Positions 8,597 through 59,957 of a DNA stretch of 64,000 nt are shown here, one piece after another. This DNA is from an uncultured Opitutaceae bacterium (GTDB taxonomy: Bacteria > Verrucomicrobiota > Verrucomicrobiia > Opitutales > Opitutaceae). Position 1 is the stretch's first letter. Every line of letters starts with the position of its first letter. The notes below the pieces were generated by a model. That model was not told the origin of the DNA and ran no database searches. It was given only the letters and a program-made list of their open reading frames with translations. Both the position numbers and the translations under genes were made by a program. Location: the NCBI GenBank assembly GCA_903929355.1, contig CAIYUN010000003.1:62001-126000 (forward strand). Direction: 5' to 3'.

Positions 8597-8672
8597 TTTA
8601 ACCACGGATTGCATAGATTAACACGGATAAGACTAAATTTGTATCCGTGCTCATCCGTGCAATCCGTGGTAA
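8597..8672. repeat. Imperfect palindromic repeat between the LysR gene and leuC
   Basis: The left arm contains TTTAACCACGGATTGCA followed by ACACGGAT. The right arm contains ATCCGTG, CATCCGTG and CAATCCGTGGTAAA. Read as reverse complement, the arms match over about 30 bp with a few mismatches. It is about 75 bp overall, fills the divergent promoter region and looks like a dispersed intergenic element rather than an operator. Confidence 0.75.
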
Positions 8673-8697
8673 ACTTCAGTCTCATCTTGATCCCATC

Positions 8698-10119
8698 ATG
8701 ACCGACCCCAAATCACTCTTCCAGAAAGTCTGGGACGCCCACACCGTCCGCACCCTGGCCAACGGCCAGACCCAGCTGCTCATCGGCACGCACCTGATCC
8801 ACGAGGTCACCTCGCCCCAGGCCTTTGGCATGATGCGGGATCTCGGCCTCAAGGTGCTGCGGCCCGATCGCACCTTTGCCACCGTGGACCACATCGTGCC
8901 GACCGACCAGTTTGCCGAGCCCTTTCGCGACCCGGTCGCCCAGGAGATGATGGACGAGCTGCGCAAGAATTGCGCCCGTTTCGGGATCACCTTTTTTGAC
9001 CGCGCCAGCGGCAAGCAGGGCATCGTCCACATCGTCGGCCCCGAACAGGGGATCACCCAGCCGGGGACGACCATCGCCTGCGGCGACTCGCACACCAGCA
9101 CGCACGGGGCGTTCGGCGCCATCGCGTTTGGCATCGGCACCACGCAGATCCGCGACGTGCTGGCCACCCAGACCATGGCGCTTGGCCAGCTGAAGGTCCG
9201 CCGCATCACGGTGAACGGCGCGCTGCGCCCCGGGGTCTATGCGAAGGATGTGATCCTCCACCTCATCCGCACGCTCGGCGTGAACGGCGGCACAGGCTTC
9301 GCCTACGAATACGGCGGCGAGGTGTTTGACCGCATGACGATGGAGGAGCGCATGACCGTGTGCAACATGTCCATCGAGGGCGGCGCGCGCGCCGGCTATG
9401 TGAACCCCGACGAAACCACCTTTGCCTACCTGAAGGGCCGGCCCTACGCGCCCAAGGGCGCTGCCTGGGACGCGGCCGTCGCACGCTGGCGCGCTACCGC
9501 CAGCGACCCCGGCTGCCACTACGACGATGTGGTCACGATCGCCGCCGCCGACATCGCGCCCACCGTCACCTGGGGCATCAATCCCGGCCAGGGTGTAGCC
9601 ATCACCGAACGCATCCCCGACCCCGCCACGGCGTCCACGGTGGATGAGAAAGCTTCCGTCGAGGAAGCGCTGGCCTACATGAAGCTCACGCCCGGCGCGG
9701 CGATCAAGGGCACCAAAATCAATGTGGCCTTCCTCGGGTCCTGCACCAACGGGCGCCTGGGCGATTTCCAGGAAGTCGCCCGCTACCTGCCCGGCCACAG
9801 GGTCGCTCCCGGGGTCAAGGCCATCGCCGTGCCCGGCTCCCAGATTGTCGCCCTCCAGTGCCAGCAGCTTGGCCTGGACCAGATCTTCCGCGACGCCGGG
9901 TTTGAATGGCGCGAGGCGGGCTGCTCGATGTGTCTGGCGATGAACCCGGACAAACTCGTTGGAGACCAGCTCTGCGCCAGCTCCTCAAACCGCAACTTCA
10001 AGGGCCGGCAGGGCAGCCCCACCGGCCGCACCCTACTGATGAGCCCGGTCATGGTGGCCGCCGCCGCCGTCACCGGCGCCGTGGCCGACGCCCGCGAGGT
10101 CTTCGGCGTGAAAAACTAA
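8698..10119 (+). CDS. leuC: 3-isopropylmalate dehydratase large subunit
   Basis: This 473-residue aconitase-superfamily protein is the [4Fe-4S]-bearing subunit that isomerises 2- to 3-isopropylmalate in leucine synthesis. The cluster ligands are C349 (GSCTNGR), C409 and C412 ([10 protein letters not shown]). The active-site segment [13 protein letters not shown] and the C-terminal [11 protein letters not shown] are present. The ATG at 8698 lies just after the palindromic repeat and gives family length. leuD follows after a 125-bp gap on the same strand, and that gap also holds a dispersed repeat. Confidence 0.97.
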
Positions 10120-10138: not shown

Positions 10139-10235
10139 TTTATCGCCAAGCCGCCAAGGCGCGAAGAGCCAATCAAGATGATTTTCAATTCTGAACCTCC
10201 GCGTCTCTGCGCCCTCGCGTCTTTGCGTTAGAAAT
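10139..10235. repeat. Dispersed GCAAAGACGCG-type repeat between leuC and leuD
   Basis: The left half reads CGCCAAGCCGCCAAGGCGCG. The right half, as reverse complement, contains AACGCAAAGACGCGAGGGCG followed by ACGCGGAGG. The same kind of sequence recurs at 50229-50340 and, more divergently, around the GxxExxY gene at 58227-58764. It occupies almost the whole leuC-leuD gap. Confidence 0.65.
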
Positions 10236-11926: not shown

Positions 11927-11995
11927 CAAGATTGCAGCAAACTACTCCATTTCTTTGTGCGCTTTGGGCTTTTTTGTGGCAATGGCTTGGTGGCC

Positions 11996-50228: not shown

Positions 50229-50340
50229 GGGAAGACGCGAGGCGAAGCGCAAAGCGGCCAAGTCGCAAAGAAATTTTTCCAGGGTGAGGTCTATCCCCCG
50301 GAAATTTCCCCTTTGCGCCTCCGCGTCTTTGCGTTTCATC
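50229..50340. repeat. Dispersed GCAAAGACGCG-type repeat between hisA and the M42 peptidase gene
   Basis: The left half is GACGCGAGGCGAAGCGCAAA followed by CGGCCAAGTCGCAAAG. The right half, as reverse complement, is AAACGCAAAGACGCGGAGGC followed by GCAAAGGGG. It lies in the divergent promoter region and belongs to the same family as 10139-10235. Confidence 0.65.
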
Positions 50341-56277: not shown

Positions 56278-58182
56278 TCAGCCCGCGTTTGGCAAAGGCT
56301 GAGGTTCTCCGCCCCGGACCTGCTTCGGGGCGGTCTCCGCCCTACCGCCGCTCCGCCATTTGACCGCCGGGCTCGTCGCCAGTGCGATGAACGCCAGCTG
56401 GCTCACCACAAACGCGAGGAGCCACCAGAAAGTTTTGTCGATGAAACCGTAACTATGGAGCCCTACGCTGAGCATGTTGACGCCAAACCAGCTCCAGCTC
56501 GTGACCACGTTGCCAAAGATCGCCAGCGCCATGAGCCCGCGCTGGCGGACCAACCCGCCCCAGCGGGCGTGAAGAATGAGCGCGTTCCACAACACGATGA
56601 TGAGCGCGCCGTTTTCCTTCGGGTCCCAGCCCCAGAAGCGGCCCCACGACTGGTCGGCCCAGATGCCGCCGAGGACGGTGCCGACAAAACTGAACAAGGT
56701 CGCGAAACAGACGATGCCATAGACCATCTTCGTCAGCGCGGTGGCGGTAGCCGGTTCCAGGGTCCGCGTGAAGACTCCGCGCACGACGTAAATGAGCGCG
56801 AGAAAGCCGGCCAGATAGGTGGCCGCGTAGCCGCTGGTGACCACCACCACATGCGTGCCGAGCCAGAAGTTCGAGTCGAGCACTGCCCGCATCATTTCCA
56901 TGGTGTCGCCGCTGAGCGCGAGATGGTGGGCGATGAGCAGCGTGCAGAAGCCGATCAGGCCGGCCGCCGCGCTGCCGATGCCGTCGCGGTAGATCACCTC
57001 CAGGACGAGACAGAGCGCCACCGCACCCCAGCCGATGAAGAGCGCGGATGAGTAAAGATTGGTGACCGGCGGGCGTCCTTCCAGCCACATTCGGACCAGG
57101 ATTCCGCCGGTGGCGAGCACCCAAGTGAGTCCGGTGAGCCAAAGTGCAGCCCGACCCAGCGCGTCGGGCCAGCGGAGCCAGGAAAACACCGCCAGCACGA
57201 ACGCAGCCACATACAAAACCATGCCATGGTAAAACGGCGCGGCGGCATTGAAGGCCGCCTCCGTGTCCGTCTTGCCAATCCGCTCCCCGTATTTCCCCAT
57301 CAGGGTGGCCCGATTCAACCCGACGAGTTTGTTGAAGACGGTGGCATCCTCCGCCCTCCAGGCATGGCCCATGGCGGCGTAAGCGAGGACGCCGGGGTCC
57401 AATTTTCTGTCCTTGACGCCATCGAGCAGCGCGTTGCCGGCGTTGCGCCAGTTGTCGCGGTTGGGGTCGTCTTCGGCCGGGGGAATGGCAAGCACCGACC
57501 CATGGTCGGCCATGGCCTGAAACTGCTTCACCGCGTCCAGCGTGGCATTGGCGGCCTTCTCGTCATAGGGCTGGCCGGCCTGCTCCGCCCGGACGGCGGC
57601 CACGCCCGCGGTGAGACCACCCTGGTAGGTGGCGAGGTCGGCCTGGAAATCACTGCTCGCGGGAATGGTGAGCGAATACCGGAGGCCAAAATACAGCGAC
57701 AGATGGGAGCTCAAGGTCATCACCGCGTGCTGGAAGGCGTTCCGGGCATTCTCGGGCGTGTCTCCGGCGAGTTTGTCCTGTTTCTCGATTTCATCCAACT
57801 TGGGGATGATTTGGGCGGCGGAGAAGCGCTTCCCTCCCGCGCCGTCCTCGGTCGCGAAACCGAGCAGGGCGAGCAGATCCGGATGCACAATCTCAATGTC
57901 CTGATAATGGTCGGCCTGGTCCCCGCGGAACAACATATCGAGCAGCCATTCGTCGGGGGTGAGGGTGCGCCCATCGGGGGTGACCACTGCCTGGCGGCCC
58001 TGGAGCAGCAGCAGACTGGTGCGGGCCACCGTGTCGAACGGTTTGAGCCGGCCCTCCATGAGCACCGGCAGCCGACCGAAGGCCTGGAGATCGAAGGCCC
58101 CGGCAGGTTTGGCCGGGAAAAGCGCGAATGCCAAATACAGCAACCCAAGACCAAGGACGAGGTGGGGGATGAAACGTTTCAT
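56278..58182 (-). CDS. ccsA: Cytochrome c assembly protein CcsA (ResC-like), long form
   Basis: This 634-residue inner-membrane protein, together with ResB, moves haem across the membrane and attaches it to apocytochrome c (system II). The C-terminal half has eight or so membrane segments and the haem-handling WWD motif (IWADQSWGRFWGWDPKENGA), with conserved His residues (ARWGG, LIAHHLALSG). The N-terminal 300 residues form a periplasmic domain (FGRLPVLMEGRLKPFDTVAR) after a signal anchor, as found in the long CcsA of some Planctomycetes-Verrucomicrobia group members. resB precedes it, but a GxxExxY gene now lies between the two. Confidence 0.9.
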   Translation of the reverse strand: MKRFIPHLVLGLGLLYLAFALFPAKPAGAFDLQAFGRLPVLMEGRLKPFDTVARTSLLLLQGRQAVVTPDGRTLTPDEWLLDMLFRGDQADHYQDIEIVHPDLLALLGFATEDGAGGKRFSAAQIIPKLDEIEKQDKLAGDTPENARNAFQHAVMTLSSHLSLYFGLRYSLTIPASSDFQADLATYQGGLTAGVAAVRAEQAGQPYDEKAANATLDAVKQFQAMADHGSVLAIPPAEDDPNRDNWRNAGNALLDGVKDRKLDPGVLAYAAMGHAWRAEDATVFNKLVGLNRATLMGKYGERIGKTDTEAAFNAAAPFYHGMVLYVAAFVLAVFSWLRWPDALGRAALWLTGLTWVLATGGILVRMWLEGRPPVTNLYSSALFIGWGAVALCLVLEVIYRDGIGSAAAGLIGFCTLLIAHHLALSGDTMEMMRAVLDSNFWLGTHVVVVTSGYAATYLAGFLALIYVVRGVFTRTLEPATATALTKMVYGIVCFATLFSFVGTVLGGIWADQSWGRFWGWDPKENGALIIVLWNALILHARWGGLVRQRGLMALAIFGNVVTSWSWFGVNMLSVGLHSYGFIDKTFWWLLAFVVSQLAFIALATSPAVKWRSGGRAETAPKQVRGGEPQPLPNAG

Positions 58183-58226
58183 TTTAGGGCGAGGTCGGAG
58201 AATGGATGAGCAATAAAAACAATCGG

Positions 58227-58258
58227 AGTTTTACACAAAGATCGCGAAGAACGCAAAG
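58227..58258 (+). repeat. Left inverted repeat of the GxxExxY cassette
   Basis: The arm AGTTTTACACAAAG followed by ATCGCGAAGAACGCAAAG is the near-complement of 58732-58764 (about 29 of 32 bases identical when reversed). It lies just after the cassette gene and 45 bp before ccsA. Confidence 0.8.
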
Positions 58259-58323
58259 GTTTCAGAGAGAGAGTGAGGGAGGCTTCTTGACGGTCTTGGC
58301 GATTTCTGTAAAAAACTCTGGGT

Positions 58324-58728
58324 TCAGGGCTGATCAGCCCCCTGAAGGATTAGGCGGCAGATGCCGTCCTTGAGGACGGGCTCGTGATAATTTATGAGCA
58401 ATCCGATGGGGGCATCGAGCAGCTTCATGTAACTCAAGAGCTGCGCCTTGTGAACCGGCAGGATCTTCTCCACCACCTTGTTTTCCACGATGAGACACCG
58501 CTCCGCAAAGACGTCCAAGCGCAGCGGTTCCTCAAAAGTCAGCCCCTTGTATTCGATTGGCACGAGCAGTTGGTTCGAGGCTTTGATGCCTCGCAGCTCG
58601 AGTTCTCTCATCAAACAGCGCTCATAAATGCTTTCGATCAGGCCGGGACCTTTGAGCCGATGGACCTCGATAGCCGCTCCAATGATCTGTCCGGAGAGTG
58701 CGTTGGCTTTGGCGAATTCCGGATGCAT
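58324..58728 (-). CDS. GxxExxY protein (PD-(D/E)XK nuclease-like)
   Basis: 134 residues. The naming motif is GPGLIESIYERCLMREL, followed by QLLVPIEYKGLTFEEPLRLD and LIVENKVVEKILPVHKAQLL. The Asp (LRLDV) and the E-x-K (VENK) give the PD-(D/E)XK core, so it could be an active nuclease; the biological role of the family is not known. ATG 58728 gives the typical start (MHPEFAKANALSGQIIGAAI). It lies between two inverted repeat arms and separates resB from ccsA. Confidence 0.9.
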   Translation of the reverse strand: MHPEFAKANALSGQIIGAAIEVHRLKGPGLIESIYERCLMRELELRGIKASNQLLVPIEYKGLTFEEPLRLDVFAERCLIVENKVVEKILPVHKAQLLSYMKLLDAPIGLLINYHEPVLKDGICRLILQGADQP

Positions 58729-58731
58729 GGA

Positions 58732-58764
58732 CTTTGCGGTCTTTGCGACCTTTGTGTAAAAACT
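58732..58764 (-). repeat. Right inverted repeat of the GxxExxY cassette, abutting the resB stop
   Basis: Reverse complement of the left arm: AGTTTTTACACAAAG followed by GTCGCAAAGACCGCAAAG. Its outer end reaches the first base of the resB stop codon (58764-58766), so the insertion point is precisely after the last resB codon. Confidence 0.8.
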
Positions 58765-59957
58765 CAGGCGGCCGCGGAGGACTTGCGGCGGGAAATGAAG
58801 GTGACGAGAGAAAGGCCAAACTGCCACAGCAATCCGCCGGCCACCATCAGGCAGCTGATGTAGGGCAGCTTCCAGCTCGGGTTACGCACGACTTGCAGGA
58901 CCGACTTGTAGTCGGGTGTGTCCATTTGTTGCTGGTAAAAAGTCATCCCATTGTAGCGGAGCGGGGCGTTCATGTAGATGAGCTTTTCGCTGTCCTCCCG
59001 ACCGTCGGCTGACGTGAGCCGCACCCGGCTGGAGAAATTCTTTGGGATGTCCGATCCCGGATAGATATCGTGCGACGCTTTGATGAGCGTGAGCGAGAAA
59101 GGCTCGTAGTCGCGCACGGGGCGTAAGTCGAGCTGCCAGCTGTGACCAGCGTCGTCCGTGAAGGTCTGCGGGGAGAAGGCTTTGGGTGCCAGGTAGAAAT
59201 AGGCTGAGACCAGCCAAGTGCCAAATGAATGGTCCTTGCCCATCAGCTCAACCGAGGCGACCGGCAGGTTCAACTCGTCGTCGCTGTAAGTGAACGGCAG
59301 CGGGGTGACCGAGAGTTGGGGGCCGAGACCGGTGGTGGCAAGCCGGCTGCCCGGCAGTTCACCGGGCGGCTGCTGGGCCGGGCCGCGGATGTCCGCGTTC
59401 GGATAATAGGCCCGCGGGATCACCGTGAACGGCAGGGCCTGACCCTGCGAGTTCGTCAGCGGCAACGGCTGCCCTTTTTCCAACAGCGCCGCCGGGATGG
59501 CCACGACTTCGTTATAGCCGGGGCTGGTGGTGTCAATCAGCGCGAGTTCGAAATCGCGTGAGTTTTCGGCGTAGTTCTTGGTGTCGCCCTCGTTGAACTT
59601 AAGCTGGAATTCCTGCTGCCAGAGGCCGGAAAGCAGCTCGCCCAGCAAAAGGAGTATCACCCCCGCGTGAGCGAGATGGATGCCCAGTTTGCGCCAGGTC
59701 AGTTTGAAGCGCTGAAGGTGGGCGGTGACGAGATTGACGAACAACAACCCGCCAACGAGGTAGCCACCGGGAAAAACCGGCACCGAAACTCCCTTGATGT
59801 TCTTCCAGACAATGAAGGTGTGAAAATATTGCTGGTGCACGCCCCAGACGCCGAGCTGGGTCTGCGCCAGCGTCGCCACGAAAACGAGCACGATGGACAG
59901 TGCAAGCAGGACAACGGTGAGCCGCAGGGAGGCGAAAATCTTGAAGAGGGAGGCCAT
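58764..59957 (-). CDS. resB: Cytochrome c assembly protein ResB (Ccs1-like)
   Basis: This 397-residue membrane protein is the partner of CcsA. It has N-terminal membrane helices (LFKIFASLRLTVVLLALSIV; FPGGYLVGGLLFVNLVTAHL; IHLAHAGVILLLLGELLSGL), a large periplasmic domain (residues 110-355), and a final helix (YISCLMVAGGLLWQFGLSLV) with a basic tail. The stop coincides with the end of an inverted repeat arm. The upstream lipoprotein gene is 14 bp away. Confidence 0.9.
   Translation of the reverse strand: MASLFKIFASLRLTVVLLALSIVLVFVATLAQTQLGVWGVHQQYFHTFIVWKNIKGVSVPVFPGGYLVGGLLFVNLVTAHLQRFKLTWRKLGIHLAHAGVILLLLGELLSGLWQQEFQLKFNEGDTKNYAENSRDFELALIDTTSPGYNEVVAIPAALLEKGQPLPLTNSQGQALPFTVIPRAYYPNADIRGPAQQPPGELPGSRLATTGLGPQLSVTPLPFTYSDDELNLPVASVELMGKDHSFGTWLVSAYFYLAPKAFSPQTFTDDAGHSWQLDLRPVRDYEPFSLTLIKASHDIYPGSDIPKNFSSRVRLTSADGREDSEKLIYMNAPLRYNGMTFYQQQMDTPDYKSVLQVVRNPSWKLPYISCLMVAGGLLWQFGLSLVTFISRRKSSAAA

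Follow-up and report, generated by a model that had tools for sequence, protein, structure and literature searches.

What a short nuclease gene enclosed by inverted repeats is doing between a resB-like and a ccsA-like gene is the question raised by one locus in a 64,000-nucleotide stretch of DNA (the window) from an uncultured Opitutaceae bacterium (assembly GCA_903929355.1, contig CAIYUN010000003.1, positions 62,001 to 126,000; source genome of 3.80 Mb in 91 contigs). The gene (58324..58728, minus strand; ATG at 58728, stop at 58324) encodes a GxxExxY (PDDEXK_3) nuclease of 134 amino acids, and a GTG-start frame, a longer version of the same gene, extends to 58827. An earlier note made from the letters of this DNA had called a 134-residue PD-(D/E)XK-type gene, and profile searches agree: the protein scores 125.6 bits against TIGR04256 (curated cut-off 35) and 117.5 bits against PF13366 (curated cut-off 22), and it contains both the motif GPGLIESIYE and a D..ENK core. 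The cassette is probably one member of a nuclease-repeat system in which a Cas4-like GxxExxY protein recognizes its own repeat arms, much as in the REP-RAYT systems (repetitive extragenic palindromes with their REP-associated tyrosine transposases) but with unrelated parts.

Two arms enclose the gene. The gene-upstream arm, TTTTACACAAAGGTCGCAAAGACCGCAAAG, comprises three units on the minus strand at 58732..58761, with its inner end 3 nt ahead of the ATG; the inverted arm on the far side, TTTTACACAAAGATCGCGAAGAACGCAAAG, lies on the plus strand at 58229..58258. The inverted repeats seen in the earlier note are thus real, though well matched over 30 nt each (27/30 complementary) rather than the 32-33 bp it gave. 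Its statement that one arm reaches the resB stop codon (58764-58766) is right in that the arm follows directly and wrong by a gap of 2 bp at the arm's outer end. Each arm consists of three units of about 7 bp at 9-bp steps (CACAAAG-GT-CGCAAAG-AC-CGCAAAG). Among inverted pairs closer than 1500 bp in a scan of the window, this pair ranked at the top (score 24, runner-up 18), and the arm motif had two matches in the window versus none in 100 shuffles. An Rfam search over 57900-59000 returned nothing but a sub-threshold nhaA-I match; it detected no self-splicing intron that could provide the setting of a group I homing endonuclease.

The gene and the arms belong together, as the earlier note had supposed, across a wide range of genomes. 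We surveyed 38 genomes (the source genome and relatives), 28 of which carry the gene, and obtained 105 matches; 97 became loci (the other 8 were fragments or second pieces) and two of these (L086 and L141) were dropped for short flanks, leaving 95. Counting as arms any inverted pair with a score of at least 17 within 400 bp of the domain, we found arms at 76 of the 95 genes and at none of 87 places 900 bp further out. The same criterion gave 0/24 at resB loci and 25/950 in a mixed control that joined left and right flanks from different genomes. Seven of the eight GxxExxY genes in the source genome have arms; directly upstream of the eighth (L023) there is a pair that looks, by eye, like those of relatives L131 and L137. 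A second survey reached further, with 80 loci retrieved through an LGPGLLES-type peptide pattern (one clade was thus sampled), 74 after six with short flanks were dropped. These loci came from Planctomycetota, Chloroflexota, Bacteroidetes, Acidobacteria, cyanobacteria, alpha-, beta- and gammaproteobacteria, Parachlamydiales, Methanosarcinales archaea and others. Arms were present at 57/74 versus 1/61 in the control; the mixed-flank control rose to 49/740 because the clade shares one unit type. The note had named a lack of repeat excess near GxxExxY genes as evidence that would speak against its idea, and the excess is strong. A chance origin was ruled out by the 0/100 shuffles and the controlled locus surveys. 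Three loci were unusual in other respects. At L130 (G009:C1:5001936-5005694) one open frame of 277 codons contains two adjacent GxxExxY domain matches, and at L032 (G020:C130) the long palindrome that surrounds the gene has the look of an assembly artefact caused by fold-back. CACAGAT arms flank a third gene on both sides (G027:C73:118563-120203) as direct repeats, mostly at steps of about 112 bp.

The anatomy of the arms is shared as well. An AT-rich or TTCAC-like outer end is followed by some three units of 7 bp, set at steps of 8-10 bp, with a unit consensus near CRCNRAD (CACGGAG, CACAGAG, CGCAAAG, CACTAAT, CACGAAA, CGCGAAT, CACGGAT, etc.) from which some lineages depart further (AACGAAG, CCAGGAA). 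We compared the two arms of an element wherever both held three exact units, which was so in 79 of 169 elements. Spacer lengths match between the arms in 73 of the 79 (random pairing expects 20%), and the units are 92% alike, the spacers 62% and the 8 nt lying inside the arms 34%. At orthologous loci, units are 88% and spacers 54% alike. The constraint thus falls on the units more than on the pairing. In a comparison aimed at concerted evolution of the two arms, as a sign of pairing, spacer identity was 63% within an element versus 54% between orthologues in a set of 16 elements, of which L016, L017, L021 and L106 were partly out of register. A single arm is not palindromic: the longest perfect stem in 266 arms averaged 2.5 bp (2.6 in shuffled arms), and none reached 6 bp.

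Which units an arm carries goes with the protein encoded beside it. Arm similarity across genomes climbs with protein identity (Spearman 0.233, permutation maximum 0.110): arms are shared by 0.4-0.5% of pairs at 20-40% protein identity, by 30% at 60-80% and by 7 of 10 pairs above 80%. Pairs from the same genome share arms in only 2 of 109 cases, and two of the 109 are more than 90% identical in protein. On a maximum-likelihood tree of 39 of the 95 proteins, the last base of the unit (G versus T/A) changes twice, compared to a shuffled mean of 12.6 (0/500 shuffles as low). The identity trend, the rare sharing within genomes and the tree together indicate that the unit type follows the protein and not the host. 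A candidate determinant lies in the motif itself. Where S, T or I follows the motif's Glu and YE comes next, the last base is G in 14/14 cases, and it is T or A in 20/22 other proteins (Fisher 3e-8, ignoring kinship and with a grouping picked after viewing the table; an initial grouping had used the residue ahead of the motif's Gly, with P 0.019).

The active-site pattern of the protein is conserved. The E of GxxE, the D and the ExK are nearly invariant, and loose patterns recover the GxxExxY motif in 168 and the D..ExK core in 173 of 175 proteins. With this active-site pattern kept and purifying selection on the gene (see below), the intact nuclease core proposed in the earlier note stands. 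An AlphaFold2 model of the window protein (pLDDT 94.1, pTM 0.87) has as its nearest Protein Data Bank (PDB) match in Foldseek SSO0001, which we take to be a Cas4 (E 6e-4, probability 1.00, TM 0.51 by query length, for the predicted model). Weaker matches were mainly lambda-type exonucleases and a splicing endonuclease. Sequence profiles reach less far. PF13366 was the sole family over cut-off in a Pfam scan of four GxxExxY proteins; the best PADLOC Cas4 match to the window protein had an E of 0.011; and none of the Cas4 profiles with a listed cut-off was reached (PF01930 scored 13.8 bits versus 22.7 for L016 and did not match the window protein). A PDB sequence search with the family profile gave 0 matches, and PHROGs had no match for the window protein. 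The phage records that contain the family come only from the haloarchaeal virus Halogranum tailed virus 1 (H9/H10, KC292026.1, two records), whose GxxExxY-like protein is annotated as a PD-(D/E)XK nuclease.

Arms without a gene are numerous. Counted as exact three-unit matches with spacers of 2-3, arm sites number 331 in the source genome, against 1 for the reversed pattern, and in the 38 surveyed genomes the 28 with the gene have 2-598 sites and the 10 without it 0-7. Across the phylum, a GxxExxY match was present in 52 of 115 sampled genomes; G142, with a match under the cut-off, was counted as lacking the gene in the comparison that follows. The median was 69 sites in genomes with the gene (n=51, control 4) versus 3 in those without (n=64, control 2), a difference with a P of 4e-19 when kinship is ignored, and 49 of the 51 with the gene passed a threshold for excess. 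The contrast is also visible within three genera. In genus g40, site counts are 0-3 for the 13 species that lack the gene and 16 for the only species that has it (G118, three genes); genus g55 has 33 sites in the one genome with the gene and 1-10 in nine without; and genus g38 has 19 and 21 with versus 3 without. Sites were found in all of 32 genomes of many phyla, most of them far above control (G039, G048, G051 and G064 were weak). The window arm type itself recurs at 6 more sites in its genome (at most 3 mismatches; reversed control 0), two of which (L011 and L014) resemble gene-less pairs by eye. For orientation and partners we used the 100 listed of the 331 sites, minus four overlapping copies of one array (C21). 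Among these, neighboring exact arms less than 600 bp apart were convergent in 15 of 24 cases (window pair included), divergent in none and oriented the same way in 9. The context of dispersed arms was read at 25 of 30 listed sites with loci (five had short flanks). No ungapped partner (score 14, 400 bp) accompanied 16 of the 25, a count that misses gapped partners and includes the window arm, whose partner lies further off; some arms sit between divergent frames. In the archaeon G041 (C5, C26, C84, C100, C166, C167), some CACAGAT/CACTGAT pairs are divergent, unlike the CACAGAG family.

The genomic place of the elements is as regular as their anatomy. In 120 elements (133 minus 13 undetermined), with neighbors defined by the longest open frame within 250 bp, the upstream gene is co-directional in 95 and both neighbors are in 74. 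For 69 of the 95 co-directional upstream genes, the distance between stop and arm is within -6 to +16 bp (median 8), and insertion right after a stop codon, described in the earlier note for one cassette, is therefore a general rule. At the window locus, the resB-like gene (58764..59957, minus strand) is immediately upstream and the ccsA-like gene (56278..58182, minus strand) immediately downstream; both are open reading frames (ORFs) that keep the names given in that note, and a frame similar to the second follows resB in relatives. The two frames overlap or nearly touch in relatives L060, L061, L067, L068, L077 and L079, which are empty sites of the kind that the note had asked for. Congeners L054, L056 and L058 have, by eye, gene-less arms of other unit types at this junction, and G020 (L065) has a broken GxxExxY fragment between arms in the same place as the window cassette. 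As relatives vary between an empty junction, other arm types and a broken gene, the site seems to have been used more than once; arms constant here in all relatives, an outcome that the note had listed against its own proposal, are not what we found. Annotated records provide two more junctions, fabD-GxxExxY-fabG in Sphingomonas parapaucimobilis and radA-GxxExxY-FAD gene in Bacteroides finegoldii. The first is empty in Sphingomonas paeninsulae (about 30 bp) and Sinorhizobium meliloti (24 bp) and the second in Parabacteroides distasonis (13 bp). In Phocaeicola massiliensis (L390, OY726023.1) the radA-FAD junction holds another open frame.

The genes themselves are mostly old and under purifying selection. 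Homology of the flanks between species or genera was found in 12 of 15 close pairs, and the ratio of nonsynonymous to synonymous substitutions (dN/dS) was 0.04-0.14 in 7 of 11 pairs and saturated in the other four. All of these pairs were hand-picked among close proteins, and L102/L111 is the least clear of the flank matches. No constant target-site duplication was found at the 133 gene-bearing elements. The flanking homology, the low dN/dS and the lack of a constant duplication argue that the gene is mostly old and kept rather than a busy transposon. Given the three pairs without flanking homology (L025/L052, L129/L111 and L135/L137), it may move at times. Long retention at homologous places, low dN/dS and arms placed after stop codons are also what a host regulatory or chromosome-organizing system would produce, with a domesticated binder of nuclease fold and with arms acting as operators or as landmarks of the parS/matS kind. 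We consider such a system quite unlikely, since a single genome can carry several distinct paralogues, each with its own arms, since presence is patchy between congeners, and since the catalytic residues are kept.

Genes of a second family share the layout. We took TIGR02436 four-helix-bundle genes (S23-type; L359-L388, with L361, L371 and L378 left out) as a same-size control and found inverted arms at 17 of 27, versus 0/27 in the far control. Their arms are tandem units mostly at 7-bp steps (AGTCAGG, GTTGAGA, AGTAGCG), and we read these genes as a second family with the same layout. Among 29 genomes searched, seven lack GxxExxY and none of these has a TIGR02436 gene; G008 has GxxExxY but no TIGR02436 gene. 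S23 genes encode the proteins of known intervening sequences (IVS), and their presence in the same genomes raises the alternative that the GxxExxY cassette works at the RNA level like an IVS of 23S rRNA: the arms would pair in the transcript, RNase III would remove the gene loop and the protein would bind RNA, all compatible with a place inside an operon. The complementary arms and the elements right after the stops of co-directional genes fit this scheme, as does the Coxiella IVS, described in the accessible part of its report as a 28-bp stem around an ORF (PMC4990558). Pairing alone would not, however, need units that outdo spacers both between arms and between orthologues, and the dispersed arms without an ungapped partner and those between divergent frames are hard to place in such a scheme. 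The modeled fold, nearest to SSO0001 and lambda-type exonucleases, also points away from RNA. On balance, an RNA-level element is unlikely.

Several observations weigh against a system of nuclease and dedicated repeats. A clear arm pair is wanting at 19 of the 95 genes of the near survey, and the TIGR02436 arms could be taken as a sign that the other controls overstate how specific arms are to GxxExxY. When spacers of 1-3 are allowed, the pattern becomes less specific (437 sites in the source genome versus 51 in the reversed control). Ten of the 64 genomes without the gene also pass the loose threshold for excess, and in genus g56 the counts overlap (8, 14, 37 and 366 sites with the gene, 8 and 9 without). 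CACGGAT arms are many in the source genome yet carried by none of its 8 genes found; CACGGAT-type genes do occur in congeners. No relative was close enough to show one gene-less pair present or absent at the nucleotide level. Outer ends match over at least 6 bp in 8 of 133 gene-bearing elements, versus 2.9 expected from mixed pairs (P 0.01), at unlike lengths and places, and these may be rare target-site duplications. Last, multi-copy arm pairs lie inside miniature inverted-repeat transposable elements (MITEs) with terminal repeats of their own in two genomes, G026 and G045.

These MITEs suggest that arms might spread only as passengers of DDE-type MITEs and by segmental duplication, and that GxxExxY merely recognizes them. 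The G026 family (L297-L300) has the terminal inverted repeat (TIR) CACAACTATCCCAT, a 9-bp duplication in two of the four copies read, and an interior of CACAGAT arms and conserved non-coding sequence. The family of G045 (Methanosarcinales; L309-L327) has the TIR GTAACTACTCAGGTA, 8-bp duplications in four copies read by eye and a look that we take to be IS66-like. It has 80 matching pieces in G045 and 7 in G041, and the arm hairpin sits mid-element in the aligned copies. Copies without the hairpin (empty sites) were sought, and none spanned the join among the matches listed (40 of 92 candidates scored). Because each family has terminal repeats and duplications (of 8 or 9 bp) of its own, the arm copies that they carry were spread by something other than GxxExxY. 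Duplication may act in the source genome as well, where L174 and L182 seem to be duplicates of a single unit. The CGCTAAT pairs of G026 are set against a general role for such carriage: by eye, their loops and flanks are unlike. We regard spread by passage and duplication alone as very unlikely.

Less probable again, and in our view highly improbable, is an ordinary transposon, with GxxExxY as a self-moving, insertion sequence (IS)-like element and the arms as its terminal inverted repeats. Such an element would explain the inverted ends, the gene-less derivatives, the empty junctions in relatives and the outer-end matches of 6-8 bp, which slightly exceed expectation. Near-identical gene copies within a genome are rare, however, flanks are often homologous and no constant duplication is seen, and for these reasons we hold it unlikely. 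The protein, moreover, contains only PF13366. Active movement of the gene-bearing cassette, which the earlier note suggested, is not supported given the rare near-identical copies, the homologous flanks and the absence of a constant duplication, and the idea of a mobile cassette was half right, in that gene-less arms are numerous and the gene copies seem to move rarely.

A nuclease-repeat system, our preferred reading, could operate through the following steps, in which the association, the cognate unit types, the dispersal and the conservation are observed and binding, cutting, spread and self-repression are what we infer. The GxxExxY protein would bind the units of its own arms in double-stranded DNA and nick or cut the DNA there, and host repair or copying after the cut would keep and spread the arm-bearing sequence. 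The gene itself would be held mostly in place and be transcribed by read-through from the upstream gene, and the arm 3 nt ahead of the start codon might let the protein repress its own gene.

The rest of the window offers further traces of such arms. A third, decayed arm (73%; 58286..58315, minus strand) occupies part of the gap that separates the left arm from the end of the gene and forms a gene-less pair with 58229-58258, giving the order arm-gene-arm-arm in the direction of the gene. Gene-less pairs occur at 8597..8673 (CACGGAT type; 8597-8628 plus, 8643-8673 minus), at 10144..10229 (25 bp past an ORF ending at 10119) and at 50248..50335. The last two were the gene-free repeat pairs of the earlier note, which described them as similar to the cassette; they exist, but they are of other unit types and resemble the arms of L021, another GxxExxY gene of the source genome (E 0.32 to 1.6e-5 per arm, individually weak to moderate). 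A single arm at 11954..11980 (minus strand) is like those beside GxxExxY gene L023 (E 1.65e-4).

Every known element family tested has at least one defining feature that the cassette does not show. The wider proposition is evenly balanced in our judgment. Under it, GxxExxY genes and their heptad arms would form a class of nuclease-repeat elements not described before, present in both bacteria and archaea and an independent counterpart of the REP-RAYT systems. A minimal nuclease of Cas4-like type would read the tandem 7-bp units, the residue that follows the motif's Glu being linked to the last base, and would drive hundreds of short repeats, many after stop codons, to persist. The S23 genes with 7-bp-step arms would add a second, unrelated protein with the same layout. 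Searches for GxxExxY, PF13366, PDDEXK_3 and TIGR04256 returned passing mentions and no description of the system in the accessible literature, which includes few subscription papers; an earlier description is possible. One of twelve arm strings was printed in the available literature text, in a study of fish environmental DNA (strings split by spaces would escape such a search). Searches of the accessible literature on REP-like repeats in Verrucomicrobia and Planctomycetes and on RAYTs with other nucleases brought up nothing on a GxxExxY system. GxxExxY is a widespread family of unknown function, and each protein's predicted DNA target is written beside its own gene; its function is therefore directly testable by binding and cleavage assays. 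The system would also tie a large class of dispersed repeats to a gene and provide a second, independent case of a kept nuclease and repeats persisting together, a puzzle that the available part of one report leaves open for REPINs (PMC3116915). The parallel with the four-helix-bundle genes may put the nature of intervening sequences back in question.

Known systems each share part of this description. The fold of the predicted model (nearest SSO0001) and weak profile matches liken GxxExxY to Cas4 and lambda-type exonucleases, but it stays under the cut-off of every Cas4 profile for which one is listed; one pipeline called a GxxExxY domain where another called cas4, according to the accessible text of a comparison (PMC8934634). 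Like MITEs, the gene-less units are inverted repeats in many copies, but no constant target-site duplication was seen at the gene-bearing elements and the partner gene is not a DDE transposase. The TAACTGA repeats of Beggiatoaceae, cyanobacteria and Bacteroidetes are described, in the portion of the paper available, as direct repeats of intergenic tandem heptamers with a patchy distribution; the author suggested that what moves may be a protein that binds the repeat (PMC4679880). That portion names no partner nuclease, and steps of 7 bp are closer to what is seen in the arms of four-helix-bundle genes than to GxxExxY arms. The IVS of 23S rRNA resembles the cassette in form: its unit of about 450-540 bp holds a single short ORF enclosed by inverted arms some 30 nt long, as given in the accessible part of its description (PMC4990558). 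GxxExxY elements share the short ORF and the arm length; they differ in a protein unrelated to S23, in a place between protein genes (here resB-like and ccsA-like) and not in 23S rRNA, and in arms at 8-10 bp steps instead of the mostly 7-bp steps of TIGR02436. The closest parallel is REP-RAYT, in which, in the sections of the reports available, distinct nuclease genes each lie beside their own repeat type, the nuclease is not self-mobile and the repeats are also dispersed as inverted pairs that co-evolve with it (PMC3116915, PMC8266576). The GxxExxY gene, likewise, sits between inverted copies of a repeat that also occurs scattered through its own genome. Its parts differ, however: a PD-(D/E)XK protein (PF13366 only; fold nearest SSO0001) instead of an HUH/Y1 nuclease, arms of three tandem units of about 7 bp instead of an imperfect palindrome, and a range that includes archaea. 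In the behavior of the system as a whole, REP-RAYT is a clear analogue of the GxxExxY elements.

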